Source: an uncultured Bacteroidales bacterium (lineage in GTDB: Bacteria; Bacteroidota; Bacteroidia; Bacteroidales; UBA4417). Taken from it: DNA of 37,743 nt. Location: contig CAIRHD010000044.1 of the NCBI GenBank assembly GCA_903878265.1, positions 1 to 37,743 of the forward strand, given 5' to 3'. The position numbers and the translations under genes are program-made. The notes beneath the pieces are model-generated. The model was not told the origin of the DNA, made no database searches, and saw nothing but the letters and a program-made list of their open reading frames with translations. Below, in pieces: positions 7,886-37,743 of this stretch (position 1 is its first letter; each line of letters begins with the position of its first letter).

Positions 7886-9076
7886 ATGACACATAGTAAA
7901 CAAGCAATCTTTACCCTTTTATTGCTGACTGCGTTCAGCATTGCAACAAAAGCCCAGCTTAAATCCGTAGCAGCCGATCCAAAATCAAATTATATTGGTC
8001 AGTTTAACCCGATTACTACGGCTGTACCATTTTTAATGATTTCGCCTGATGCCCGTGGCGGTTCAATGGGAGATGCTGGGGTTTCTTCGGAACCTGATGC
8101 TTTTTCGATGCACTACAATCCCGCAAAATTCGCTTTCATCAAAAAAGATATGGGCGTCGGCATATCTTACAGCCCTTGGCTCAAGGGGCTTACCAACGAT
8201 ATTAACCTGGCTTACCTGAGTGGTTTCAAGAGGATTACCAAGGATCAGGTAATTGCCATGTCGTTGCGATATTTTAACCTTGGCAATATCAACTTTACCG
8301 ACATCAACGGCGGTCCGATTGGCGATTACAAGCCTAACGAATTTGCACTTGATGGCACATACTCTCGCATGCTGACTTCAAATATGTCGATGGCCGTAGC
8401 TGCAAGATTCATACACTCGAACCTTACACAAGGGCAGGATGTAGGTGGCCAAGCTACAAAACCAGGAAACTCCGTTGCAGCCGATGTTGCTTTGTTTCAG
8501 CGTTTTCCAGTCGAATTTGATAAAATTGATGGTAATTTTTCCTGGGGTTTGAATATTTCCAATATTGGGATAAAGATGTCATATAGCGATGATAACACTA
8601 ATAAAGATTTTATTCCTACCAACTTCAAATTAGGCCCTTCACTCACGCTCAACCTCGATGATTTTAACCAGATGTCGTTTATGGTTGACTTCAACAAATT
8701 GCTTGTTCCAACCCAAAGTATTGATAGCAATGGGATTATTATAGCTGGAATGGATCCAAATGTATCTGTCCCCGTTGGCATGATACATTCATTTTATGAT
8801 GCACCGGGCGGTTTAAGCGAAGAAATGGCCGAAATCAGCATTTCAACTGGCATCGAATATTGGTACGCCCAACAATTTGCACTTCGTGGAGGTTTCTTCT
8901 ATGAGGATAAAAATAAAGGGAACCGGAAGTTTTTCACTTTAGGTGCAGGTTTCAGGTACAACATCTTAGGTATCGATTTCTCGTATCTTATCCCACTCGA
9001 AACACAAAACCCACTTGAGCATACTTTGCGTTTCTCGCTACTCATCAATTTTGATGCACCTTCGGCAGCGAAATAG
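7886..9076 (+). CDS. porV: T9SS outer-membrane protein PorV
   Basis: PorV (also called LptO) is an outer-membrane beta-barrel that receives cargo from the T9SS translocon and delivers it to PorU. The protein has 396 residues, the normal PorV size. It starts with a signal peptide (MTHSKQAIFTLLLLTAFSIATKAQ). The family's N-terminal region follows: PFLMISPDARGGSMGDAGV, then the asparagine/proline motif SMHYNPAKFAF and ISYSPWLKGL. The C-terminus ends in alternating barrel strands (LRFSLLINFD). It follows the two porU genes on the same strand, as porU-porV pairs do in other Bacteroidota. A second, more distant member of the same superfamily is encoded at 30572-31624; this one is the better match to true PorV because of the porU context and the motifs above. 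Confidence 0.95.
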   Translation: MTHSKQAIFTLLLLTAFSIATKAQLKSVAADPKSNYIGQFNPITTAVPFLMISPDARGGSMGDAGVSSEPDAFSMHYNPAKFAFIKKDMGVGISYSPWLKGLTNDINLAYLSGFKRITKDQVIAMSLRYFNLGNINFTDINGGPIGDYKPNEFALDGTYSRMLTSNMSMAVAARFIHSNLTQGQDVGGQATKPGNSVAADVALFQRFPVEFDKIDGNFSWGLNISNIGIKMSYSDDNTNKDFIPTNFKLGPSLTLNLDDFNQMSFMVDFNKLLVPTQSIDSNGIIIAGMDPNVSVPVGMIHSFYDAPGGLSEEMAEISISTGIEYWYAQQFALRGGFFYEDKNKGNRKFFTLGAGFRYNILGIDFSYLIPLETQNPLEHTLRFSLLINFDAPSAAK

Positions 9077-21511: not shown

Positions 21512-21658
21512 TTCGATGTAAATGTGTTGTTTGTCGCTGTCATTGTCCTTTTGTTCGATGTAAATGTCCTATAGTTCAATGTCAACTACCTGTTTGTTGC
21601 TGTCAATATGTTATTGTTCAGTCTAAATGTGTTGCTTTTCGATGAAAATGAAAAGAAA
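21512..21658. repeat. Seven degenerate 21-bp tandem repeats
   Basis: Words related to TTCGATGTAAATGTG or GTCGCTGTCATTGTC recur at 21512, 21533, 21554, 21575, 21596, 21617 and 21638, a strict 21-bp period despite many substitutions. Two sub-types partly alternate (TTCGATGTAAATG; GTYGCTGTCAATG). On the minus strand one frame reads heptapeptides such as TFTSNKR, TMTATNN and TFTSNIN, but a TAG interrupts it. Confidence 0.75.
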
Positions 21659-21699
21659 CCGTTTCGAGGGTTGGTAAAAACCGCTCGAAGGGTTCATCC

Positions 21700-21812
21700 T
21701 CCCATTATCGCATTTTCTAATTCTCACATTCTCATATCCCCAAATCTTCACATCCCCAAATCCCGACATTATCAAATTTTCCTATTATCCCATCAATTTA
21801 TCCATCAAATAA
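21700..21812. repeat. Pyrimidine-rich low-complexity stretch
   Basis: Loose repeats of CATTCTCATATCCCCAAATC-like words on the plus strand, with almost no G over more than 100 bp. The period is irregular. It lies just before the small membrane protein gene. Confidence 0.55.
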
Positions 21813-21850
21813 ATGTACTTTTACAAGCGATTTTACAAAACACATTTCCA

Positions 21851-22327
21851 ATGGGCGATTACATCTATATTTTAATAGGTATAGTTTGGGTGGCATATAC
21901 CTTATACTCTGCCAGGCAAAAAGCATTGCAAAAACAGCAAGATACCGGATTGCCACCATCAGGGCCATCGCAATCGTCGCCACTTCCTATACCAGGCAAC
22001 CAAGGTGGAGGAAAATCATTGTTAGAAGATATTTTTCGCGAATTAACAGGCGAAACCAAACCCGTTCCGCGACCAAGCCAGCCTTTCCCAACCACTCCCA
22101 CGGTTCAGCCTGCGCAGGTGCGGCAAACGGCCCAAGCTGCTAAAAGTTCGACACGGTATGCCGACATATCGGGTTTTGCGGCAGCTTTTCCACAAAATGA
22201 ACAAAAAGGCGAGAGGATTTCTGGTGCAAACGATGGGCAAACGATGAAAAATGATAGTATCGCTAAAAGATTTGACCTTCGCGAGGCTGTCATTTTCAGT
22301 GAATTACTTAACAGAAAGTACTTTTAA
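21851..22327 (+). CDS. Small membrane-anchored protein of unknown function
   Basis: A 158-residue protein not assigned to a named family. The ATG at 21851 is chosen because it puts a hydrophobic segment (YIYILIGIVWVAYTLYS, residues ~4-20) right at the N-terminus; the open frame upstream to 21608 is repeat-derived. The membrane segment is followed by a short basic/Gln stretch (ARQKALQKQQ), a long Pro/Ser/Thr/Gln-rich low-complexity linker (with LLEDIFRELTGE inside), and a compact C-terminal end, FDLREAVIFSELLNRKYF. That last motif looks like the conserved part and could be a docking peptide; I recall similar ends in Bacteroidota hypotheticals but could not verify this. It probably sits in the inner membrane with the tail in the cytoplasm or periplasm. 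A perfect hairpin follows the stop, and the TonB receptor starts 118 bp on. Confidence 0.7.
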   Translation: MGDYIYILIGIVWVAYTLYSARQKALQKQQDTGLPPSGPSQSSPLPIPGNQGGGKSLLEDIFRELTGETKPVPRPSQPFPTTPTVQPAQVRQTAQAAKSSTRYADISGFAAAFPQNEQKGERISGANDGQTMKNDSIAKRFDLREAVIFSELLNRKYF

Positions 22328-22445: not shown

Positions 22446-25400
22446 ATGGTAAGAAAATTACTCTTTCTCCTTGTTTTGCTTCTCACAGCAAACGCAGCTT
22501 TGTTAGCGCAATCGGGAGCGTTACAGGGCAAAGTCATTGATAAGGTGACCAAGGAGCCAATCCCATTCACCAATATCATTGTTGAGTTCAAGGGGACGCA
22601 AGCCGGTGGAACAGCCTCCGACTTCGATGGCAAGTACTCTATTAAGCCGATTACACCGGGCACCTACGATGTTAAGGCATCGTTTTTAGGTTACAAACCG
22701 GTTCAAATCACAGGTATTCCTATCCGTTCGGGTATTATCGAATACCTGAACATCGAACTCGAATCTACTGCCGTTCAGGTGGAAGGGGTAACAATTACCA
22801 AGTACAAAGTACCGCTTATTGATAAAGACAAGACAGTTTCGGGTGCAACAGTTACTTCTGAGGAAATCAGCAAGATGCCGAGCCGTAATGCTCAATCCAT
22901 TGCTACCAGTGTTGGAGGTGTTTTTTCCCGCGATGGCGAGGTTGGCAACGTTCGCGGACAGCGTTCGGATGGCAATGTTACATATATTGACGGGATTAAA
23001 GTACGCGGTACTGGCGGTTTGCCCGAATCGGCAATCGAACAGGTTTCTGTAATTCTGGGAGGTGTGCCAGCTCAATATGGTGATGCCACGGGTGGCATTA
23101 TCAATATCACAACCAAAGGCCCTTCGCGGCAGTTTGGTGGTGGCATTGAGTTACAAACCTCACAATTCCTCGATCCTTATGGTAGCCACCGTGTTGGATT
23201 AAACCTCACTGGTCCACTGTTCTGGAACAAGGCGAAGACCGAAGCTTTGCTTGGTTACTTTATAGCTGGCGATTTCAATTACCATAAAGACGGTGCTACC
23301 TTGCCTTTAGGACTGTATAAAGTAAACGATGCCAAATTGGCCGAACTCGAAGCAAACCCTTTGCGGCCATCCGGTACAGGGCAAGGAAACTATCAGAATG
23401 TTGAGTTTATCAGGCAATCCGATTTGGTAGCTTTGAAATCCTCGCTCAATAGCAATGGGTACGATATAAACACCTCTGGAAAGTTGGATGTAAAAACGGG
23501 AAAGAACACCAACCTTACTTTTGGAGGGTCGTACAGTGCTTCTGCAGGAAATAATTACAACCTTTACCATTCCATTTTCAATTACAACCGGAATTCTTAT
23601 TCCAGTGGCAACGAATGGCGTGTTTTTGGCAGGTTTACACAGCGTTTCCCTGCTTCAAAGGATGCCAATACCTTGGTGAAAAATATTTATTACTCCATCC
23701 AGGCCGACTATACCAGTATTAAAAATAAAACAGAAGACCCTGAACTAAAGGACAACCTTTTCGCTTATGGCTATGTTGGGAAGTTTGATACCTATAAAGA
23801 AAAAGGTTATGATTATTTCCCTGAAGTTGATTCGAACGGACGCTTATTGTCTGCGACTCTAACCATGAATGGTTTTTCTGATACACTTGTTACTTTTTCG
23901 CGTGCCGAGTTTAACCCTGTGTTGGCAAACTACACTGATAATTTTTATAAATACTATGCCGAGAACAATTTCTTACTGCCTTTCGACCCCAATCACACCC
24001 AACCCTTTAATAAAGAGGAAATTTATTCTGGTGGTGGAATGTTAAATGGATATACCCCAAACGGTGTTTTTAACGGTGTTTACGGCTTATGGTCGGCACC
24101 TGGCAACCAACAGACTGGATATGGCAAAAGCTCTACTACCCAGGTAACAGCCAACATGAACCTTTCGGCCGATGTAGGCAACCACGAAATCAAGCTTGGG
24201 TTTACTTTCGAGCGTTACAGCCAAAGCAATTTTTCGTATGCGCCTACAACCTTCTGGCAACAGATGTCGCAGTTGACCAACTTCCATATTAAAGAACTCA
24301 ACCTGAACGATTCGATGGTGACAAACTATCAAGTAGTTAATCCTAATAATGATACTGTTGATTTTACAAAAATAGATTTTAACAGGCTTTATGATGGTAG
24401 CTCCCAAAGTGTTTTTGATATGAACCTTCGTTCAGCAATGGGTTTGTCCAAAACAGGTACCGAATGGATAGATATAAATTCTTATGACCTTAACTCAAAC
24501 ACGATATCCTATTTCGACGATAATAACCAAAGGCGTACCGTGAATCTGAATAAACCAGTATCGGTAGATTTCTTCAGTCCAGATGAATTCCTTAATATTA
24601 GTGGAAATGCATTTGCTGTAGCAAGGGGATATGATTATTATGGCAATAAGTTGACTTCGAGTCCAAGTATATTGGATTATTACAATAATACCGACGCCAA
24701 TGGGAATTTTACCCGTCAGATAAAACCAAATGAGCCTATTTATATGGCAGGTTATATTTCGGATAAATTTTCTTTCGACGATCTGGTATTCAATGTTGGG
24801 CTTCGTGTGGATCGTTTTGATGCAAACCAAAGCACCTTGAAAGATGCTTATTCGCTTTATCCTATTAGGACTGTTTCTCAAGTTACCAACCTTGGCGAAC
24901 ACCCTTCAAGTATGGGTGATAACTATGCAGTATATGTGGATAACCTTACTGAACCAACACGCATAATGGGCTATCGCGATGGCAGCAACTGGTACGATGC
25001 CAATGGGGCGGTATTGCTTGACCCTACATTTCCTTTAGATGCGGGAAACGGTATTACACCTTACCTTGAGGGTGGTAAAGTAATTGATGAGAAATCGTTT
25101 GCCGATTATGTTCCACAAATTTCGGTAATGCCACGTATCTCGTTCTCGTTCCCCATTTCTGACGAGGCATTGTTCTATGCCCATTATGATGTAATTACCC
25201 AAAGGCCAAAATCTTATGCGGTTATGGATCCTTTCAATTACCTGAAATGGCAATATAAGAGCAATTTAACAATGAGCAACCCGAACCTGAAACCGGAGAA
25301 AAATGTGAACTATGAATTGGGTTTCCAACAAAAGATTTCCAATTCATCTTCCATCAATATCTCGGCATTTTATATCGAATCGCGCGATCAAATTCAAATG

Positions 25401-26177
25401 TTCCGCTACACAGGGGCATATCCTTCCATGTATTACTCATACAATAACATCGACTTCGGTACGGTTAAAGGTCTTACAATTGCTTACGATCTCCGCCGTA
25501 CTGGCAATGTTCGTATCAGGGCTAACTATACGCTTCAGTTTGCAAACGCAACAGGTTCAAATCCCGAAACTTCAAAAGCACTTATTCAATCTGGCCAGCC
25601 CAACCTTCGTAACCTAATCCCAACCGATGCTGACCAACGTCATGCCATACAGGTTAACGTCGATTTCCGTTATGCCGAAGGAACAGATTATAATGGCCCG
25701 GTTATTAATGAGATTCAGGTATTGAAAAATGCAGGTTTCAATATTACCATGAACGGCGGTTCGGGAACACCTTATACCCGTTCGAGTACTATCTCCAGTT
25801 TGCTGGTATCTAATTCGATGGTACAAGGTTCACTTTCCGGTTCGCGCTTGCCATGGTCGTTCAGGATGGATGGCCGTTTGGACAAGGATTTCACTGTGGC
25901 CGTTGGCAAGGATTCAAAAGGAGGCAAAAAGGAATACTTCCTCAACGCTTATCTTCAAGTGCTGAATATACTAAATACCCAAAATATAATGGGCGTTTAT
26001 GCCGCTACCGGAAACCCTAATGATGATGGATATTTGGCTGCTGCTGAATACCAGTCACAGATCAATTCGCAGCTCGATTCTCAGTCGTTCAGGGATATGT
26101 ACAGTATCAGTGTCAACAATCCTTACAATTACAGTTCGCCCCGTATGATCCGTATTGGAGTAGGGATAAGCTTCTAA
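22446..26177 (+). CDS. TonB-dependent receptor with carboxypeptidase-regulatory-like N-domain
   Basis: A 1,243-residue outer-membrane gated channel that would take up a ligand using TonB energy. Order: signal peptide (MVRKLLFLLVLLLTANAALLA-Q), a beta-sandwich carboxypeptidase-regulatory-like domain (GALQGKVIDKVTKEPIPFTN ... YDVKASFLGYKPVQ, residues ~24-105), the plug domain (EEISKMPSRNAQSIATSVGG ... VRGQRSDGNVTYIDG ... GGVPAQYGDATGGIINITTK, ~135-222) and a long barrel ending RIGVGISF with the terminal Phe typical of outer-membrane barrels. The barrel contains big loop insertions. No SusD partner follows; instead a very large secreted protein and a PorV-like protein do, with short gaps. This argues against a classical glycan-uptake pair. 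The substrate is unknown. Confidence 0.92.
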   Translation: MVRKLLFLLVLLLTANAALLAQSGALQGKVIDKVTKEPIPFTNIIVEFKGTQAGGTASDFDGKYSIKPITPGTYDVKASFLGYKPVQITGIPIRSGIIEYLNIELESTAVQVEGVTITKYKVPLIDKDKTVSGATVTSEEISKMPSRNAQSIATSVGGVFSRDGEVGNVRGQRSDGNVTYIDGIKVRGTGGLPESAIEQVSVILGGVPAQYGDATGGIINITTKGPSRQFGGGIELQTSQFLDPYGSHRVGLNLTGPLFWNKAKTEALLGYFIAGDFNYHKDGATLPLGLYKVNDAKLAELEANPLRPSGTGQGNYQNVEFIRQSDLVALKSSLNSNGYDINTSGKLDVKTGKNTNLTFGGSYSASAGNNYNLYHSIFNYNRNSYSSGNEWRVFGRFTQRFPASKDANTLVKNIYYSIQADYTSIKNKTEDPELKDNLFAYGYVGKFDTYKEKGYDYFPEVDSNGRLLSATLTMNGFSDTLVTFSRAEFNPVLANYTDNFYKYYAENNFLLPFDPNHTQPFNKEEIYSGGGMLNGYTPNGVFNGVYGLWSAPGNQQTGYGKSSTTQVTANMNLSADVGNHEIKLGFTFERYSQSNFSYAPTTFWQQMSQLTNFHIKELNLNDSMVTNYQVVNPNNDTVDFTKIDFNRLYDGSSQSVFDMNLRSAMGLSKTGTEWIDINSYDLNSNTISYFDDNNQRRTVNLNKPVSVDFFSPDEFLNISGNAFAVARGYDYYGNKLTSSPSILDYYNNTDANGNFTRQIKPNEPIYMAGYISDKFSFDDLVFNVGLRVDRFDANQSTLKDAYSLYPIRTVSQVTNLGEHPSSMGDNYAVYVDNLTEPTRIMGYRDGSNWYDANGAVLLDPTFPLDAGNGITPYLEGGKVIDEKSFADYVPQISVMPRISFSFPISDEALFYAHYDVITQRPKSYAVMDPFNYLKWQYKSNLTMSNPNLKPEKNVNYELGFQQKISNSSSINISAFYIESRDQIQMFRYTGAYPSMYYSYNNIDFGTVKGLTIAYDLRRTGNVRIRANYTLQFANATGSNPETSKALIQSGQPNLRNLIPTDADQRHAIQVNVDFRYAEGTDYNGPVINEIQVLKNAGFNITMNGGSGTPYTRSSTISSLLVSNSMVQGSLSGSRLPWSFRMDGRLDKDFTVAVGKDSKGGKKEYFLNAYLQVLNILNTQNIMGVYAATGNPNDDGYLAAAEYQSQINSQLDSQSFRDMYSISVNNPYNYSSPRMIRIGVGISF

Positions 26178-26220
26178 TTGATATATAATGCATCGTAGAA
26201 ACGAAAAACAAACAAAATTT

Positions 26221-29200
26221 ATGAAAAATATATTCCGAATCCTACCGGCGATTTTATTGGGCTTCCTTCTGATGGCAAATGCTAGCAGGGCAGAGCAGTA
26301 TCATTACAAATCGGGAACCCCGGTAGTTAAACAAACAGCAGCAGGATGTACTCCGGGTGCTAATTTCAAATGGCTCGAAATCAACAACGTACGTACCCGT
26401 ATCAACACTGGTGGCGATATGTGGTGGGACTTTGAAGTTGCCCAATACGAAATCCCGAAAGGTTCGAAAAAGATGTCGATGTTTTCGGCCGCTTTATGGA
26501 TTGGTGGACTCGATGCCAACGGACAGTTGAAAATGGCCGCACTCCGCTACCGTCAGGTCGGTAACGATTATTGGCCTGGTCCGCTTACCATTGATGGAAC
26601 AGCCGCAATCAGCTCCGATGTGTGTGCCAAATGGGATAAACTTCACTACATCACCAGAGCGGAGGTCGATGATTTCCTTGCCGCTTACAACGACCCAGCG
26701 GGACATCCTGATTATCAGACTCCATCATCTATTGAAAATTATCCTGCGCATGGCGATCCGGGACAAAGTTACTATTTGGCACCTTTTTATGATAACGACC
26801 CAGATGGCGCAGGACCACAGGAACCTGATGGGGATTACAACACAAAGCAAGGCGATTATCCTTACTACGACTTGTCCAATGCGCTTTGTCATACAAACAC
26901 CCCAACTGCCGAAGGTGCTGGCAACCTTGTGGATCAGGTTTTAAAAGGGGATGCTACATTATGGTGGGTTTTCAACGATAAAGGCGCTATCCACAGCGAA
27001 TCAAAAGGGGAACCTATCGGACTGGAAATCAGGGCACAAGCCTTTGGGTTTTCAACCAACGACGAAATCAACAACATGACTTTCTATAGCTATGAAATCA
27101 TCAACAGATCTACTTACCGCCTTACCCAAACCTATTTCAGCCAATGGGTTGATACCGACCTTGGATATGCAAAGGACGATTATGTAGGTTGCGATGTAAT
27201 GCGTGGTTTGGGTTACTGCTACAACGGTACTGCTGTTGATGGTAGTGGACAGGCATTTGCTTATGGCGATAAACCCCCTGCCATTGGAGTTGACTTTTTT
27301 CAAGGCCCTTATATTGACAAAGATAAGAAAGGGAAAATTAATGGCGATAACCCTGCAACGACTGGCGATCCTACCTTCCACCTTAAAGGTTCACCAGATT
27401 TAAACTTTACAGGTGGGGCGCAAATGGTTCTTTGGGATGGGCAAACGCTGGAAAAAATTGTAAATGGGGATACCATTTTCAAAGTCATAAATTCAGCTGC
27501 CATCAATGGCATAAACTTTGGAAACGGCATTGAGGATGACGAACGTTTTGGGATGCGCAGGTTTGTGTATCATAACAACGGTGGATCAGCATACATGCAG
27601 GATCCTTCGGTGGCTATCGAATATTATAACTACCTGAAAGGGATATGGAAAGATGGCACCAAGATGCTTTACGGTGGCAATGGCCACGAAGGCGCAGGTG
27701 CACTTGTTCCTCCAATTGAAGCTGACTTTATGTTCCCTGGCATGACCGATATTTACGATTGGGGAACACGGGGCATTACTCCAAGTCCTAAAAACTGGAC
27801 TGAAGTAACCGCCAACAACCCTCCGGATGACCGCCGTTTTATGGAATCGGCCGGACCTTTTATATTGGAGCCAGGTGCTGTAAATTATATAACCGTAGGT
27901 ATTCCATGGGCTCAGGCACAAAGCGGTGGCCCGTTAGCCTCTGTAAGGATGTTACAACAGGTTGATGATAAATGCCAAATGTTGTTTGATAACTGTTTTA
28001 AAGTTATTTCCGGTCCTAACGCCCCCGATTTAACCATTAAAGAATTAGACAAAGGCTTGATCCTTTATATAACCAACCGTAAAACCAACGATGCTGGCAA
28101 TAACTATCAGGAAAAATATTCGGAATTTGACCCACGTATCCAAGGTTCGGAAACTGACCACTGGGATTCGTTGTATCATTTCGAGGGATACCAAATATAC
28201 CAATTGAAAGATGCAACAGTTTCGGTTGCCGATCTTAAAAATCCTGACATGGCCCGCTTGGTATTTCAATGTGATGTAAAAAACAATGTTTCTCAATTGG
28301 TTAATTTTTACTACAACCAAAACCTTAGTGGCAGTGCTCCTGTCGAAGAAGTGGTAGGTGTTAATAAAGGTATAACCCATTCGGTACAACTTACCAAGGA
28401 TGCTTTTGAAGGGAATGATTTGGTAAACCATAAGCAGTATTATTACCTTGCTGTTGCTTATGCCCAAAATAACTACAAGAAATATAACCAAACTGACCCA
28501 AGTGCATTGGATGGCCAAAAATTGCCCTATTTGGCAGGCCGGAAAAACATCAAGACATATACGGGAATCCCCCATGCCTCAGTCGGTATGATTTCGGCGA
28601 ACAGCACTTTCGGCGAAGAACTTGTTGTTACCCGCTTGGCCGGACAAGGCAATGGCGGTAAATTCCTTGATCTTTCGGATGAAACCATCGCTGAAATCAT
28701 GTCGAAAAGAATGGCCGATTCACTTAACGTTCCGGGTGGCCCAGATTACCCGATATCTTACAATCCTACTTATACAAAAGGCAATGGCCCGATTACGGTA
28801 AAAGTTATTGACCCTCTAAACGTAAAGGACGGTGAATATACTGTGAAATTTGATTCTATGTATAAAGTTGAAGTCCCTGTTGGCGAACTCGATACAGCAA
28901 TGTTGGTAGCAAGTTGGTCGTTAGTTGACAATATTACGGGTAAAGTTTATATTTCGGATACCACAATAAACACCCTGAATGAGCAATTATTCCTTGATTT
29001 GGGGTTATCTGTCAGCATTAACCAGACACTGTATCCAGGCCCTTATGTTGTTGGAACAAAGATAAAACAAGTAGCTGGTTCGCCTGATTTAATACTGCCT
29101 GATTACCAGCCTGTTCTTCCAAATAACGGATTTCTTGAAGGTACGATGGCCTTTCAGGATTCAACAAAACCTTGGTTGGATTTCCTTCCTGATATTGATG

Positions 29201-30531
29201 GATTCCCTATGTACGATTGGATAAAAGCCGGTTTGAAAACAGAAATACCAGCAGACTGGAACAACACAAAGGATAAATGTTTCGACCCTGAGTCGGTTTA
29301 TGAAACTGTATTAGGAGGAACCTGGACACCATATATGTTTGCTGAAACAGGCAGAACGGATACAGTAGTTGGGGTTGCGCATGGTGAATATCAGGTGGAA
29401 TCGCAATCGCGCGAATATTGTTCGTTTACTAATATATCGGGTGTTGATGTTGTTTTCACAGCCGATAAATCGAAATGGACACGTTGTGCGGTAGTCGAAT
29501 TATGTCCAGTTGACAAATCGAGTGCTGCCGAAGGCGGTGCAAAGCAATTTGAATTGCGTAAAGGCCGTTCCGTCAATCAGGATGGGGATACTGCAGTGCA
29601 GAGTAGCGATCCGGCTAAAAATTCTGATTTTATTTCCAAATACAGCATGGGATGGTTTCCTGGTTATGCAATCAATGTTGAAACTGGCGAACGTCTCAAC
29701 ATGTTGTTTGGCGAAGATTCCCGCCTTGTTGATGATAATGGACGGGATATGATATTCAATCCGTCCCCAAGAATCCGTACAGATAGAGGCCGACCCGTGA
29801 TGGGAGGAAAACACTTTATTTATGTAATGGCACATGTTGTCGGCAAGAAAAAAATTGTCGCCCCAAGCGCAACCCTCCCAGCAGAAGCTTATGATAACCC
29901 TGCTTATGATGGTTGTGCAAACTTTGTAAAACAAGTGAACACTCCTCGCAACCCTGTATTTATGAGGCAGGTACGCGGTTTGCAATTCTCAAATTGCATG
30001 TGGGTAAGTATTCCTATTGCCAACCCCGTAAATGGATGGTTGAGCAGCGACTTAAAAGTAAAACTGAGGATAACAAAACCTTATACAAGATATTTCTCTA
30101 CTGCAATTACTAATGGTTTACAAAATGCCAATAATTACTGGCCTATGTATAAATTCGATACAAAAGCAGTCACTACAAATTATGCAAATACAGAAAAAGC
30201 AAAAACGGATTTGGATTTGATAAATGTTGTTCCTAATCCATATAACGCTTATTCGAAGTATGAGGTTGACCAGTTTGATAACCGGATAAAAATAACCAAC
30301 CTTCCACAGAAATGTACAGTAGTTATTTATTCCGCAAATGGTAGCCTTATTAGACAGTTTAATAAGGATGAGGCAAAAACATCTATTGATTGGGATCTGA
30401 AAAACTTTGCCGGAATATCTATTGCAGGGGGTGTTTATATCATTCATGTAAAGACTGACCAAGGCGAGAAGGTTATCAAATGGTTTGGTTCATTGCGGCC
30501 TGTTGACTTTAACGGTATCCCACTCAATTAG
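26221..30531 (+). CDS. Very large secreted protein with atypical C-terminal sorting-like domain
   Basis: A 1,436-residue exported protein of unknown function. The ATG at 26221 gives a signal peptide (MKNIFRILPAILLGFLLMANASRA), so the open frame's first 11 residues (from 26188) are dropped. The N-terminal third has a striking motif run: INTGGDMWWDFEVAQYEIPK, AALWIGGLDANGQLKMAALR and YRQVGNDYWPGPLT, rich in Trp and Gly as in beta-sandwich or sugar-binding surfaces. The middle contains several Asp/Asn-rich loops (DNDPDGAGPQEPDGDYN) that could bind calcium. The C-terminus (INVVPNPYNAYSKYE ... GGVYIIHVKTDQGEKVIKW) resembles a T9SS type A or FlgD-like domain but extends a further ~15 residues (FGSLRPVDFNGIPLN). 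It lies 43 nt after the receptor and 40 nt before the PorV-like gene, so the three are very likely one transcript. Confidence 0.85.
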   Translation: MKNIFRILPAILLGFLLMANASRAEQYHYKSGTPVVKQTAAGCTPGANFKWLEINNVRTRINTGGDMWWDFEVAQYEIPKGSKKMSMFSAALWIGGLDANGQLKMAALRYRQVGNDYWPGPLTIDGTAAISSDVCAKWDKLHYITRAEVDDFLAAYNDPAGHPDYQTPSSIENYPAHGDPGQSYYLAPFYDNDPDGAGPQEPDGDYNTKQGDYPYYDLSNALCHTNTPTAEGAGNLVDQVLKGDATLWWVFNDKGAIHSESKGEPIGLEIRAQAFGFSTNDEINNMTFYSYEIINRSTYRLTQTYFSQWVDTDLGYAKDDYVGCDVMRGLGYCYNGTAVDGSGQAFAYGDKPPAIGVDFFQGPYIDKDKKGKINGDNPATTGDPTFHLKGSPDLNFTGGAQMVLWDGQTLEKIVNGDTIFKVINSAAINGINFGNGIEDDERFGMRRFVYHNNGGSAYMQDPSVAIEYYNYLKGIWKDGTKMLYGGNGHEGAGALVPPIEADFMFPGMTDIYDWGTRGITPSPKNWTEVTANNPPDDRRFMESAGPFILEPGAVNYITVGIPWAQAQSGGPLASVRMLQQVDDKCQMLFDNCFKVISGPNAPDLTIKELDKGLILYITNRKTNDAGNNYQEKYSEFDPRIQGSETDHWDSLYHFEGYQIYQLKDATVSVADLKNPDMARLVFQCDVKNNVSQLVNFYYNQNLSGSAPVEEVVGVNKGITHSVQLTKDAFEGNDLVNHKQYYYLAVAYAQNNYKKYNQTDPSALDGQKLPYLAGRKNIKTYTGIPHASVGMISANSTFGEELVVTRLAGQGNGGKFLDLSDETIAEIMSKRMADSLNVPGGPDYPISYNPTYTKGNGPITVKVIDPLNVKDGEYTVKFDSMYKVEVPVGELDTAMLVASWSLVDNITGKVYISDTTINTLNEQLFLDLGLSVSINQTLYPGPYVVGTKIKQVAGSPDLILPDYQPVLPNNGFLEGTMAFQDSTKPWLDFLPDIDGFPMYDWIKAGLKTEIPADWNNTKDKCFDPESVYETVLGGTWTPYMFAETGRTDTVVGVAHGEYQVESQSREYCSFTNISGVDVVFTADKSKWTRCAVVELCPVDKSSAAEGGAKQFELRKGRSVNQDGDTAVQSSDPAKNSDFISKYSMGWFPGYAINVETGERLNMLFGEDSRLVDDNGRDMIFNPSPRIRTDRGRPVMGGKHFIYVMAHVVGKKKIVAPSATLPAEAYDNPAYDGCANFVKQVNTPRNPVFMRQVRGLQFSNCMWVSIPIANPVNGWLSSDLKVKLRITKPYTRYFSTAITNGLQNANNYWPMYKFDTKAVTTNYANTEKAKTDLDLINVVPNPYNAYSKYEVDQFDNRIKITNLPQKCTVVIYSANGSLIRQFNKDEAKTSIDWDLKNFAGISIAGGVYIIHVKTDQGEKVIKWFGSLRPVDFNGIPLN

Positions 30532-30571
30532 GAGAAAGTAGAATATTAACCTCTAAAAACGGACTTTACAC

Positions 30572-31624
30572 ATGAAAAATATCTATAAGTCGATCATAAC
30601 AATATTTCTGTCAGCGGTATTGGTTCTTCCAGTAATAACGTTTGCAGGAAACAAGGACAGGTCGGGACAGGCCGGTGCATCGGAACTTTTAATCAACCCT
30701 TGGGCACGCAGTTCAGGTTGGGGCGGTGTGAACATAGCAAATAGTTTTGGCCTTGAGAGCATCTATACAAATGTTGCCGGATTAGCTTTCACTAAAAAGA
30801 CAGAGCTTATATTCAGCCATACTCAATGGTTAAAAGGATCGGAAATTGGGATAAACAACTTCGGGTTTGCTCAAAAAGTTGGCGAATCAAGTGTTCTTGG
30901 TTTAACAGTGAATACAATGACTTTCGGCGATCTGCCTATAACCACCACCGAATTGCCCGAGGGTGGAGTTGGAACATTTTCACCATCCTATATGAATATC
31001 AATGTAGCGTATGCCAAAGCTTTTTCAAATTCGATTTATGGCGGTTTCAATTTCAAGATTATTTCTGAATCCATCAGCGATGTTGGGGCACAAGGGGTTG
31101 CAATTGATGCAGGTATCCAATATGTAACCGGCGAAAAGGAAAATATCCATTTTGGAATCTCTTTGAAGAATGTTGGCCCAACCATGAAATTCAGTGGCGA
31201 TGGTTTATCTATCCGGAGTTTTTTGCCAGGTCAATCAAGCCAGTTTACGGTCGAACACCGTTCGGCAGAATTTGAATTACCATCGCAATTGAACATTGGT
31301 GGTTCTTATGCGTTTTTATTCAACGAAATTCATACATTAACCGTGGCGGCAGCGTTTATATCTAATGCTTTCAATAAGGACCAGTATGTATTAGGAGCAG
31401 AATATCAGCTGAAGAACTACCTGATGTTACGCGGTGCTTATACCTACGAAGAAGGAATAAATACTAACCTGAGCACAACAGCAATGACTGGGCCAAGTGC
31501 TGGGTTAACTGTACAGGTTCCTATAAACGTGGAAAAAAACTCGGTATTCTCGGTTGATTATTCCTATCGCGCAACCAACCCTTTTAAAGGGTGTCATACT
31601 ATGGCCGTAAGGCTTAGTTTCTAA
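30572..31624 (+). CDS. PorV/PorQ-family outer-membrane protein
   Basis: A 350-residue beta-barrel protein of the PorV/PorQ (UPF0164-like) superfamily. It has a signal peptide (MKNIYKSIITIFLSAVLVLPVITFA-G), the family's N-terminal pattern GASELLINPWARSSGWGGVN followed by ESIYTNVAGLAFTKKTEL (equivalent to the YNPA region of PorV), then alternating strands to a C-terminal Phe (MAVRLSF). It is shorter than and clearly different from the PorV at 7886-9076. PorV delivers T9SS cargo to the sortase and PorQ is a related T9SS protein; a paralogue next to one huge secreted protein suggests a dedicated carrier for that protein, which is inference. It is the last gene of the receptor operon, followed by a terminator. 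Confidence 0.88.
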   Translation: MKNIYKSIITIFLSAVLVLPVITFAGNKDRSGQAGASELLINPWARSSGWGGVNIANSFGLESIYTNVAGLAFTKKTELIFSHTQWLKGSEIGINNFGFAQKVGESSVLGLTVNTMTFGDLPITTTELPEGGVGTFSPSYMNINVAYAKAFSNSIYGGFNFKIISESISDVGAQGVAIDAGIQYVTGEKENIHFGISLKNVGPTMKFSGDGLSIRSFLPGQSSQFTVEHRSAEFELPSQLNIGGSYAFLFNEIHTLTVAAAFISNAFNKDQYVLGAEYQLKNYLMLRGAYTYEEGINTNLSTTAMTGPSAGLTVQVPINVEKNSVFSVDYSYRATNPFKGCHTMAVRLSF

Positions 31625-31671
31625 AAGAATAAAGTGGCTCTGGCCGCATAAACAGGCAAACAATTTTTAAA

Positions 31672-31712
31672 GAAAGGACTCTTTTGTTTTAAGGGTCTTT
31701 TCTTCTTATTTA
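31672..31712 (+). terminator. Terminator of the receptor operon
   Basis: GAAAGGACTC pairs with GGGTCTTTTC (10 bp with two G-T pairs) around an 11-nt AT-rich loop, followed by TTCTTATTT. It lies 47 nt after the PorV-like stop and directly before greA. Confidence 0.7.
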
Positions 31713-35194: not shown

Positions 35195-35247
35195 CAATGT
35201 TTTTTCAATTCTATAAATTTAAACAAATACTAATTCATCCCTACAAT

Positions 35248-37743
35248 ATGAAAAAGGCATTGAAAATTTCAGCCATAGTAATTGGCATATTTTTACTGAT
35301 TATCATCCTATTACCCTTTGTTTTCAAAGGCAAGATTCAGAAAGCTGTCCAGCTGGAGATAAACAAAAACCTAAACGCAGTTGTGTCTTTTGATAAAGTT
35401 GGGGCAAATTTGTTCAGCCATTTCCCTGATCTTACCATCAATGTGGAAAACCTTTGCGTGATAGGCTCAGGCGATTTCGAAAAAGACACGCTTGCTTCAA
35501 TATCAACTTTTTCTATTTCCCTTGATTTGGCAAGTGTCTTTGGCAGTAACGGTTACGAAGTAAAACAAATAATCGTTTCTTCACCTCACTTACTGTTTAA
35601 AGTGCTGGCAAATGGTAAAGCAAACTGGGATATTGCAAAAAGTACAGGGACAACCGATTCAACATCAGCACCGTCTGAATTTAAAATTTATCTTGATAAA
35701 GTCAGCATCAACGATGCAAATATTGTTTATGACGATTCCGAAACGCCCACATTTGTTTCACTTCTGGGCCTAAATGTCCAACTAAGTGGCGATATGACCG
35801 CTGATATTACAGCTCTAAACTTCAAAACCACTGTTGATAAATTGACTGCCGATTATGATGGAATCCGTTATATCAGCAATTCAACAGCAGAAATTTCGTC
35901 GATTCTTAATGCCGACCTAAAAAACATGGCTTTCACGTTTAAGGATGGAAACCTTCTGCTCAACGATTTGAAAATTACTGCTGATGGTTCGTTTGCCATG
36001 CCAAATGAAGGCTACCAGATGGACATCAAATTTGCCGCCAAGGAAAGCTCTTTCAAATCCTTCCTTTCGCTTATCCCGGCTATTTATTCAAAAGATTTTG
36101 AAGGATTAAAAACTTCTGGGACAATGGCTTTGGATGGTTTTGTAAAAGGTTTGTACAGTGATATTTCGATGCCGGCTTTCGCAGTCAATCTGAAAATTGC
36201 CGATGGGATGTTCAGTTATCCTGGTTTGCCCGGAAATGTTTCGGACGTAAATTTGCTGGCAGCCGTTGCTAATCCTGACGGAATCCTGGATCATACAACC
36301 ATTGATGTTCCTCGTTTCCACTTAAGTATGGTGCAAAATCCTGTCGATATAACCTTAGCGGTGAAAACCCCAATTTCGGATCCGGACATAAAAGCAACTA
36401 TGAAAGGCACCTTAAACCTCGAAAATGTTGCTAAAATCTATCCTTTGGGCGAAAATACAAAGTTATCGGGTATAGTCAATGCTGATATGGCATTTAGCGG
36501 CAAATTATCAGCTATCGTAAAAGGCGCTTACGATCAGTTTAAAGCAAACGGTTATGCAACTGTGGATCAACTCGTTTACTCTGGACCAGAAACGCCGTTG
36601 CCTCTCACTCTTGCTAAATCCAGGCTGGAATTCACGCCGGAATATGCTCAGCTTTCCGGTTTTTCGATGTCGATAGGCAAAAATGATTTGGCCGCAGATG
36701 GTAAAATCGAAAATTATATCCCGTACATAATGAAGAAAGATGCTTTGCTGAAAGGTGCGCTTACTTTAACTTCCAATTATATGGATATCAATAGTTTGAT
36801 GGAAATTTCTTCGTCTAATCCAAAGCAAGTGGACACAACAGCGCTCACCATTGTCGAGATTCCTGGCAATGTTGATCTTACGTTAAGCACTTCGTTCAAA
36901 AAACTGCTGTACGATACCTACGATATGAGCAATGTGGACGGCTTAGTGAAAGTGAAAGATCATAAGTTGTTCTTCGATGGTTTGCAAATGCAAATGTTAG
37001 GCGGATCCATGGCAATGAAAGGTTCGTATAGTACGCTTATTGCAAGTAAACCATTGGTTGATATGGATTTGCAGGTTAAAAACATTGATGTGAAACAGTC
37101 GTTCAACACATTTAACTCTATTCAGAAAATGGCTCCGATTGCCGAAAAACTAAAAGGGAATATCAGCACAAACCTAAAATTTAAGGGAACGCTCAAAAAA
37201 GATATGATGCCCGACCTGATTTCTGTTTCGGCAAATGGGCTTCTGTTTTCGGAAATTTTGCAGTTGACAAACCTGAATACGTTCAACAAGATTGCCGATT
37301 TGTTGAAACTGGAAAAACTCAGGAATCCTTCCATCGAAAAGCTTAACCTTTCATTCGATATTTTGGTTGGGAAAGCTACGGTGAAGCCAATGGACTTTAA
37401 ATTGGGTTCGTACAAAGCCAACTTTTCAGGGACAACGGGGCTTGATCAGGTGCTGAATTTTATACTTACGCTCGATATTCCACGCGCCGAGTTTGGCACA
37501 AAAGCCAATAATGTGTTTGATGGGTTGATAAAGGATGCTTCTAAAAAAGGGGTAAATGTAAATGTTGGCGAAATTGTTCCGGTTATGGTCCTAATTGGCG
37601 GTACGGCATCGGATCCAAAAATTACAACTGGCATAAAATCCGCAATGGCCGATTTGGCGGCTGATATGAAAAAGCAAGCACTTGCCGAGGCTGAAAAGAA
37701 AAAAGAGGAGATGCTTTCCAAAGCGAAAGACGAAGCCAATAAC
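35248..37743 (+). CDS. AsmA-family envelope protein (3' end outside window)
   Basis: An open frame of 832 codons with no stop before the window ends. The ATG at 35248 begins a short basic stretch and one membrane segment (ISAIVIGIFLLIIILLPFVF, residues ~8-27), then an AsmA-like opening (KIQKAVQLEINKNLNAVVSF, HFPDLTINVENLCVIG). The rest is a long series of beta strands, as expected for the lipid-carrying groove of AsmA/TamB-like bridge proteins, inner-membrane anchored and reaching into the periplasm. The visible end is a charged helix (ADMKKQALAEAEKKKEEML), which often closes Bacteroidota AsmA proteins, so little is probably missing. Proposed role: phospholipid transfer or outer-membrane biogenesis, by family only. 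Confidence 0.85.
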   Translation, partial: MKKALKISAIVIGIFLLIIILLPFVFKGKIQKAVQLEINKNLNAVVSFDKVGANLFSHFPDLTINVENLCVIGSGDFEKDTLASISTFSISLDLASVFGSNGYEVKQIIVSSPHLLFKVLANGKANWDIAKSTGTTDSTSAPSEFKIYLDKVSINDANIVYDDSETPTFVSLLGLNVQLSGDMTADITALNFKTTVDKLTADYDGIRYISNSTAEISSILNADLKNMAFTFKDGNLLLNDLKITADGSFAMPNEGYQMDIKFAAKESSFKSFLSLIPAIYSKDFEGLKTSGTMALDGFVKGLYSDISMPAFAVNLKIADGMFSYPGLPGNVSDVNLLAAVANPDGILDHTTIDVPRFHLSMVQNPVDITLAVKTPISDPDIKATMKGTLNLENVAKIYPLGENTKLSGIVNADMAFSGKLSAIVKGAYDQFKANGYATVDQLVYSGPETPLPLTLAKSRLEFTPEYAQLSGFSMSIGKNDLAADGKIENYIPYIMKKDALLKGALTLTSNYMDINSLMEISSSNPKQVDTTALTIVEIPGNVDLTLSTSFKKLLYDTYDMSNVDGLVKVKDHKLFFDGLQMQMLGGSMAMKGSYSTLIASKPLVDMDLQVKNIDVKQSFNTFNSIQKMAPIAEKLKGNISTNLKFKGTLKKDMMPDLISVSANGLLFSEILQLTNLNTFNKIADLLKLEKLRNPSIEKLNLSFDILVGKATVKPMDFKLGSYKANFSGTTGLDQVLNFILTLDIPRAEFGTKANNVFDGLIKDASKKGVNVNVGEIVPVMVLIGGTASDPKITTGIKSAMADLAADMKKQALAEAEKKKEEMLSKAKDEANN

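Follow-up and report, generated by a model that had tools for sequence, protein, structure and literature searches.

Carriers of the Type IX Secretion System and the Locus Studied

In the excerpts of the papers cited here, PorV is described as the general carrier of proteins that the type IX secretion system (T9SS) exports by a type A C-terminal domain (CTD), and PorP/SprF proteins are described as dedicated carriers of type B cargos (PMC12618676, PMC12635249). PorV loops take type A CTDs from SprA (PMC10994853), and a 2025 paper states that this one carrier recognises all type A CTDs (PMC12618676). A PorV-family partner for a single T9SS protein has a precedent in PorQ, which holds PorZ (PMC5562754, PMC10202324). 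The CTDs of PorZ and PorU are reported to be uncleaved and kept on PorQ and PorV (PMC10202324, PMC5562754), and a 2023 review, with PorZ and PorQ as its named case, suggests a possible protection of CTDs by cognate PorV-like barrels (PMC10202324). Here we describe a locus in a 37,743-nt stretch of DNA from an uncultured Bacteroidales bacterium (contig CAIRHD010000044.1, positions 1-37,743; the whole stretch is called the window), in which genes for a TonB-dependent receptor (TBDR), a large secreted T9SS protein (the cargo) and a barrel of the PorV/PorQ family (PVL) follow one another. This order is retained far beyond the species, more than chance would give. The triplet cargos carry a distinct CTD subclass that is tied to PVL rather than to the front domain, and the nearest known relative of the triplet is PorQ–PorZ. 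A preliminary description of the window had set a PorV-type partner beside one cargo and a TonB receptor apart from the known dedicated T9SS partners; it missed the precedent of the PorQ–PorZ pair. Searches of the open-licence literature, some aimed at PorV paralogues and PorV–TonB units, gave no description of the TBDR–cargo–PVL unit.

The three genes lie head to tail on one strand within 22446-31624, and the features of the locus are as follows.

22446..26177, plus strand: TBDR, 1243 aa, with an N-terminal CarboxypepD_reg-like domain, a plug and a barrel (open reading frame (ORF), Pfam and NCBIfam scans)
26221..30531, plus strand: cargo, a large secreted T9SS protein of 1436 aa with an N-terminal signal-like stretch (ORF)
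26347..28005, plus strand: cargo residues 43-595, a predicted beta-supersandwich module (AlphaFold2 (AF2) model, fold searches)
30190..30495, plus strand: cargo residues 1324-1425, T9SS CTD of a PorZ/PorU-like subclass (profile scores, structure comparison)
30496..30528, plus strand: cargo residues 1426-1436, a C-terminal extension past the usual type A CTD end (alignment)
30572..31624, plus strand: PVL, a PorV/PorQ-family outer-membrane barrel of 350 aa, neither canonical PorV nor PorQ (profile scores)
31670..31704, plus strand: terminator-like stem-loop with a T tail, 3' of PVL (consensus scan)

The close spacing of about 40 nt given in the preliminary description is correct. TBDR and cargo are 43 nt apart, or 10 nt with an in-frame ATG at 26188 as the start of a 1447-aa cargo, and cargo and PVL are 40 nt apart; greA and then a HIT-family gene follow 3' of PVL. 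The shared terminator proposed there has a candidate in the GC-poor stem that stands 45 nt past the PVL stop, ahead of greA, and has the most pairs in the scan (14). The hairpin is weak evidence by itself, since the scan gave 13 sites against 11.8 ± 3.1 in shuffled sequence. In the TBDR, CarboxypepD_reg, Plug and the TonB barrel are all above the Pfam cut-offs, and its reading as a TonB receptor without SusD stands: no SusC/RagA model is among its NCBIfam matches and no SusD model was found among the scanned ORFs (cargo, PVL and two ORFs on each outer side; 35197-37743 lies outside the scan). Among nine TBDR homologues scanned with Pfam, all nine have CarboxypepD_reg and six have the plug above its cut-off; the TBDR alignment comprises 17 rows. 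The large gene product is, as had been stated, a secreted protein of 1436 residues, and its CTD passes the type A model TIGR04183 with 26.4 bits (cut-off 23). No match to the type B model TIGR04131 was obtained at E ≤ 0.01 in the NCBIfam scan, and no lipobox Cys was seen by eye after the signal-like stretch.

The assignment of the third gene to the PorV/PorQ family was confirmed by NF033709 (151.8 bits, cut-off 90), which PVLs from diverse loci also pass in ten of ten cases with 100-238 bits. The window PVL fails the models for canonical PorV (NF033710, 70.5 bits against a cut-off of 250) and PorQ (NF033711, 72.3 against 220), and in a profile search of the sequences of solved structures in the PDB its sole match below E 0.05 is PorV. 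Because the same genome has separate PorV (7886-9076 in the window contig, 483 bits), PorQ (contig C257, 312 bits), PorZ (C193, 437 bits), SprA (C142, 2540 bits) and PorU, PVL is an extra member of the family, and the T9SS translocon and attachment proteins are all found. Six PorV-family places occur in this genome, four of them above the cut-off and one a partial second PorV, along with at least 150 matches to the type A CTD model, the number scored out of 280 candidates. Outside the class Bacteroidia, 36 of 44 SprA-positive genomes hold 9-24 PorV-family genes among the matches listed.

Comparison with Described Systems

PorQ–PorZ and the present locus both combine a PorV-family barrel with one T9SS protein, and the cargo CTD here is nearest to that of PorZ by sequence and by structure. 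They differ in that PVL is far under the PorQ cut-off in a genome with its own PorQ and PorZ, that the cargo front is a predicted supersandwich whereas PorZ has beta-propellers, and that a TBDR belongs to the unit here. The placing of the putative carrier gene directly 3' of the cargo recalls type B cargos and PorP/SprF, for which dedicated pairing has been demonstrated according to the excerpted paper (PMC12618676); unlike these pairs, PVL is under the cut-off of the PorP/SprF model (TIGR03519, 21.9 vs 90.55 bits) and the cargo has no type B CTD match. PVL shares its family with PorV, and the cargo CTD is above the type A cut-off, but PorV is a single general carrier, whereas here a private gene goes with a distinct CTD subclass. 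In SusCD systems, too, a TonB-dependent outer-membrane channel works beside a large surface protein; that partner is a lipoprotein, whereas here it is a T9SS protein, and neither the SusC/RagA model nor, in the scanned ORFs, SusD was matched. In BamG–BamH a FadL-like barrel holds a large surface protein (PMC12578637, PMC12611786). BamH is a lipoprotein, however, and the subunits reported in the excerpts of these papers include neither a TBDR nor a T9SS cargo. Identity with this BAM complex was judged improbable on these descriptions and on the lack of any FadL/Toluene_X Pfam match of PVL at E ≤ 0.01.

Conservation of the Gene Triplet

The cargo is present in 19 of 41 relatives, counting the genome of the window itself. 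At the 17 near full-length cargo loci (L027-L043), PVL is next to the cargo in every case, the TBDR precedes it at all 16 loci with room for it, and greA and the HIT-family gene lie 3' in 16 and 15 of the 17. A scan of named contigs confirmed at least 575 relatives, of which the best 80 were retained. At these named loci the TBDR is directly 5' of the cargo in 75 of 79. A fixed gap rule places PVL 3' of it in 74 of 79 (75 with L124) and both neighbours in 73 of 78 (74 with L124). The rule works on stop-to-stop frames and overlooks overlapping neighbours, which affects L124, L201 and L203; L271 and L280 are counted as triplets. Forty regions were chosen from the strongest rows of a 296-genome search of the phylum, some inside the class and most outside it. 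Here the TBDR is found in 32 of 38, PVL in 31 of 37 and both in 29 of 35, in addition to one TBDR (L203) and one PVL (L201) that the rule overlooked.

The same arrangement appears when sampling begins from PVL. In a PorV-family search of 80 genomes the canonical PorV group (the first 60 rows, 273 bits and up) was removed beforehand by score alone, and every third row of the 58 that followed was sampled. The resulting 20 non-canonical places, among the matches listed, lean to copy-rich non-class genomes and high scores. Sixteen are exact triplets, three are TBDR–PVL pairs in which the cargo sits three genes 5' of the TBDR, and one, the sole same-class place, is neither. The adjacency of the three families across Bacteroidota, which had been left for counting, is thus borne out in the named loci, the chosen regions and the PVL-first sample. 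Assembly chance as the source of the gene order is ruled out, as the order recurs across independent genomes.

Two variant arrangements were observed. A recurrent cluster at L267, L272 and L279 consists of a subclass cargo, a protein of about 700 aa with an ordinary CTD, a 500-560-aa protein, the TBDR, PVL and a 360-380-aa protein; the third and the last of these proteins look lipoprotein-like by eye. At L158 (13512-17624) and L165 PVL is directly followed on its 3' side by another such cargo, giving TBDR–cargo–PVL–cargo.

The trees of TBDR, cargo and PVL agree in their pairwise distances, with correlations of 0.96 for 114 triplets and 0.89-0.91 for the 43 distant ones, and none of 499 permutations gave values as high. 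In 12 triplets from genomes with more than one sampled triplet, the nearest foreign neighbour is shared by TBDR and cargo in nine and by all three genes in six. These paralogous triplets argue for inheritance as one unit. Such a unit might serve secretion or assembly, the TBDR being a PorF-like T9SS helper that acts with PVL in export or placement of the cargo and takes no part in nutrient uptake. PorF (PG0534) is, in the excerpted report, a TBDR required for normal gingipain secretion, and in Cytophaga hutchinsonii PorV and SprA were purified together with a TBDR that has 32.8% identity to PorF (PMC8564354), the likeness to the present unit being a TBDR linked to these T9SS proteins; the three TBDR–PVL pairs among the 20 sampled places also favour this explanation. 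PorF, however, is listed as a general secretion component of about 92 kDa in the excerpt of another paper (PMC5445135), smaller than the 1243-aa TBDR here, and the tree distances give the TBDR here a history shared with one cargo. This explanation appears unlikely.

The C-Terminal Domain Subclass

The window cargo reaches 33.3 bits with the NCBIfam PorZ model. A CTD profile was built from the 125 C-terminal residues of each of 71 named triplet cargos, together with the matching part of the window cargo, pre-CTD stretch included, and was tested on sequences outside its building set. The 43 distant triplet cargos all lie between 45.7 and 180 bits, the 37 from outside the class at 45.7-125 and the six within it at 134-180. 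The ordinary type A cargos of the same genome, represented by the 30 best TIGR04183 rows, reach 29.5 bits at most, 29 of them scoring 14.7 or less or giving no match. The CTDs of the two PorU proteins reach 33.6 and 33.7 bits, and four orphan paralogues of the cargo, alike in the front but outside triplets in the DNA examined, score 5.1 bits or less. At the distant loci, 48 further CTD proteins compared at equal lengths divide into 36 ordinary (≤26.7 bits) and 12 subclass proteins (≥50 bits). The paralogues at L047, L048, L049 and L051 are shorter (644-688 aa), have the same front with ordinary-looking CTD ends, and neither a TBDR nor PVL stands next to them in the DNA examined; they are natural domain swaps.

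Ten triplet-type CTDs, nine from triplets and one from a TBDR–PVL cluster, have PorZ (eight) or PorU (two) as best NCBIfam match, and just one of the ten passes the type A cut-off. The modelled window CTD is an immunoglobulin-like sandwich whose tail has low pLDDT and is poorly defined when modelled alone. It is closest to PorZ 5m11 (Z 9.5 over 88 residues, 26 percent identity) and next to PorU 6za2 (Z 7.5, tied with an unrelated chain), and the PorZ CTD is also the sole match of the cargo in the PDB sequence search. Bacteroidia cargos overrun the usual CTD end by about 10-12 residues, R1426 and D1429 of this tail being the same in all 18 aligned sequences, and the 30 best-scoring ordinary type A cargos of the genome all end 0-1 residues past that end.

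These scores bear on whether the general carrier would suffice, the cargo being carried by PorV like other type A cargos and PVL being a separate FadL-like channel or scaffold that merely shares the operon. The excerpts of two 2025 papers make type A substrates dependent on PorV (PMC12618676, PMC12635249), and the window CTD does pass the type A model. Yet a CTD subclass exists and associates with PVL, its nearest relatives are the CTDs of PorZ and PorU, which stay on PorV-family barrels in the reports cited above, and the one PDB sequence matched by PVL below E 0.05 is PorV. We regard a merely operon-sharing PVL as unlikely.

The Front of the Cargo

The front was modelled by AF2 over residues 26-735 from 81 sequences (pLDDT 85.7). 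Residues from about 43 to 595 match the beta-supersandwich N-domains of GH94, GH65, GH15, GH116 and GH149 enzymes. Z-scores are 14.7-18.9 over 229-274 residues (50 entries, among the matches listed), and Foldseek gave a best E of 5.5e-5 with low TM-scores. These enzymes carry a catalytic (alpha/alpha)6 barrel, and this barrel seems absent from the cargo because few helices are predicted in either half, so that on the models binding appears to fit better than catalysis. The middle of the cargo (about 735-1320) gave no clear fold match, a region that the fold searches barely probed. In the 80-genome sample the front module is present in 36 of 62 SprA-positive genomes vs none of 18 SprA-negative ones.

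The fold also fits a surface-glycan housekeeping role in Bacteroidia, where the cargo, mostly in one copy beside greA, would handle the cell's own surface glycan, as PorZ does anionic lipopolysaccharide (A-LPS), and not a nutrient. The syntenic inheritance beside greA and HIT and the closeness of the CTD to PorZ would suit such a role as well. It is difficult to reconcile with the lack of the cargo in five of 15 congeners, with the TBDR as part of the unit and with the 9-24 PorV-family genes of most SprA-positive genomes outside the class, which look like ligand diversity. A housekeeping role is considered improbable.

Other Features of the Window

A small protein (21608-22327) precedes the TBDR, and a homologue of about 158 aa stands ahead of the TBDR in several congeners. 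Just a short stretch of it is kept in farther relatives, and it has no family match in the NCBIfam and Pfam scans. The contig begins (1-7655) with two tandem PorU sortase genes, 72% identical over 1193 aa, followed by porV (7886-9076). Tandem full-length PorU genes, in two or three copies, occur in 11 of 15 congeners, and the genome of the window has a partial further copy on contig C628. Since copies stand side by side in so many congeners, the tandem looks like a genus trait rather than an assembly error.

Proposed Mechanism and Its Weight

On balance, and with modest confidence, the triplet is taken to be a conserved outer-membrane surface module in which PVL is a dedicated PorQ-like carrier and anchor; with less certainty, the cargo would offer a ligand to the TBDR. 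The cargo would be exported CTD first through SprA, and PVL, instead of the general carrier PorV, would receive it from the SprA channel. PVL would then retain the cargo on the surface through the uncleaved CTD, in the manner of PorQ with PorZ. Less confidently, the exposed front may bind a ligand above the neighbouring TBDR, the simplest candidate being a glycan or glycoconjugate, so that cargo and PVL might together fill the role that the surface lipoprotein SusD has in SusCD systems. Transfer of a ligand from cargo to TBDR is pointed to solely by the supersandwich front and the neighbouring TBDR gene. The earlier proposal of a carrying or holding role for the PorV paralogue towards the large protein gains indirect support from the CTD subclass that accompanies PVL, and the interpretation of which it was a part is partly supported as a whole.

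Several observations weigh against this module. The CTD subclass also occurs outside triplets, in the 12 subclass proteins among the 48 further CTD proteins. Three of these 12 (L169, L172 and L176) have PVL next to them, at contig ends or with the TBDR incomplete or uncalled, and three more belong to TBDR–PVL clusters. The two subclass proteins of L204 have a TBDR and PVL close by on the opposite strand, and those of L183, L192, L195 and L196 have no PVL in the DNA examined. The relation to PorZ and PorU is also blurred in places: some of the best matches are weak and nearly tied with FlgD-type models, and one ordinary cargo of the same genome (C26 at L260, 29.5 bits with the triplet-CTD profile) matches the PorZ model with 33.7 bits. 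The C-terminal extension was rejected as a hallmark of the module because it is not universal; many triplet cargos outside the class are without it, so that the shared mark is the CTD core and not the tail.

The distribution is patchy as well. Two of the five congeners without a cargo are 97-99% complete, and of the 18 other same-class genomes in the 80-genome sample 14 lack the front module, 13 of these with SprA. Among the named loci, L133, L149, L153 and L163 carry a cargo without an adjacent PVL or TBDR; two of these genomes have PVL elsewhere, and the remaining two gave no strong PVL match. Outside the class, certain triplets (e.g. G078, L205) have no detectable front module, and the ligand idea cannot be extended to every triplet for this reason; in such genomes the front varies while CTD and PVL stay. 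A shared fold, moreover, demonstrates no function. The co-occurrence of the front with SprA is a weak independent test, since 17 of the 18 SprA-negative genomes are of one family, and the agreement of the trees may be largely vertical descent, by which much of the correlation within Bacteroidia could be explained. As a separate observation, small proteins 3' of two of the cargos without PVL (L149:12012-12788 and L163:5550-6014) have similar N-terminal sequences by eye, and they are perhaps another barrel and another partner.

Implications

A broader proposal can be put forward only tentatively, and we give it less than an even chance. It holds that there is a third T9SS route, in which a PorZ-type CTD subclass is sorted by private PorV-family carriers that stay on as anchors. 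The giant protein that they anchor, whose Bacteroidia form would bind glycans by its supersandwich front, would be the external binding half of a TonB-dependent importer, i.e. the T9SS counterpart of SusCD, kept mostly as one syntenic copy in Bacteroidia and as many paralogous copies in other classes. If the part played by the TBDR is true, the T9SS would also build importers, a function not found reported in the literature examined. The module also gives a defined test of how CTDs and carriers choose each other, as natural domain swaps exist in which the same front has another CTD, with or without PVL. If the proposal as a whole is true, it would be an undescribed way to build a surface uptake or sensing machine, and it would offer a reason for the many PorV-family genes of SprA-positive genomes outside the class. 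The single-carrier rule of PorV would then be broken across the phylum, by type-A-like cargos that have PorV-family genes of their own.

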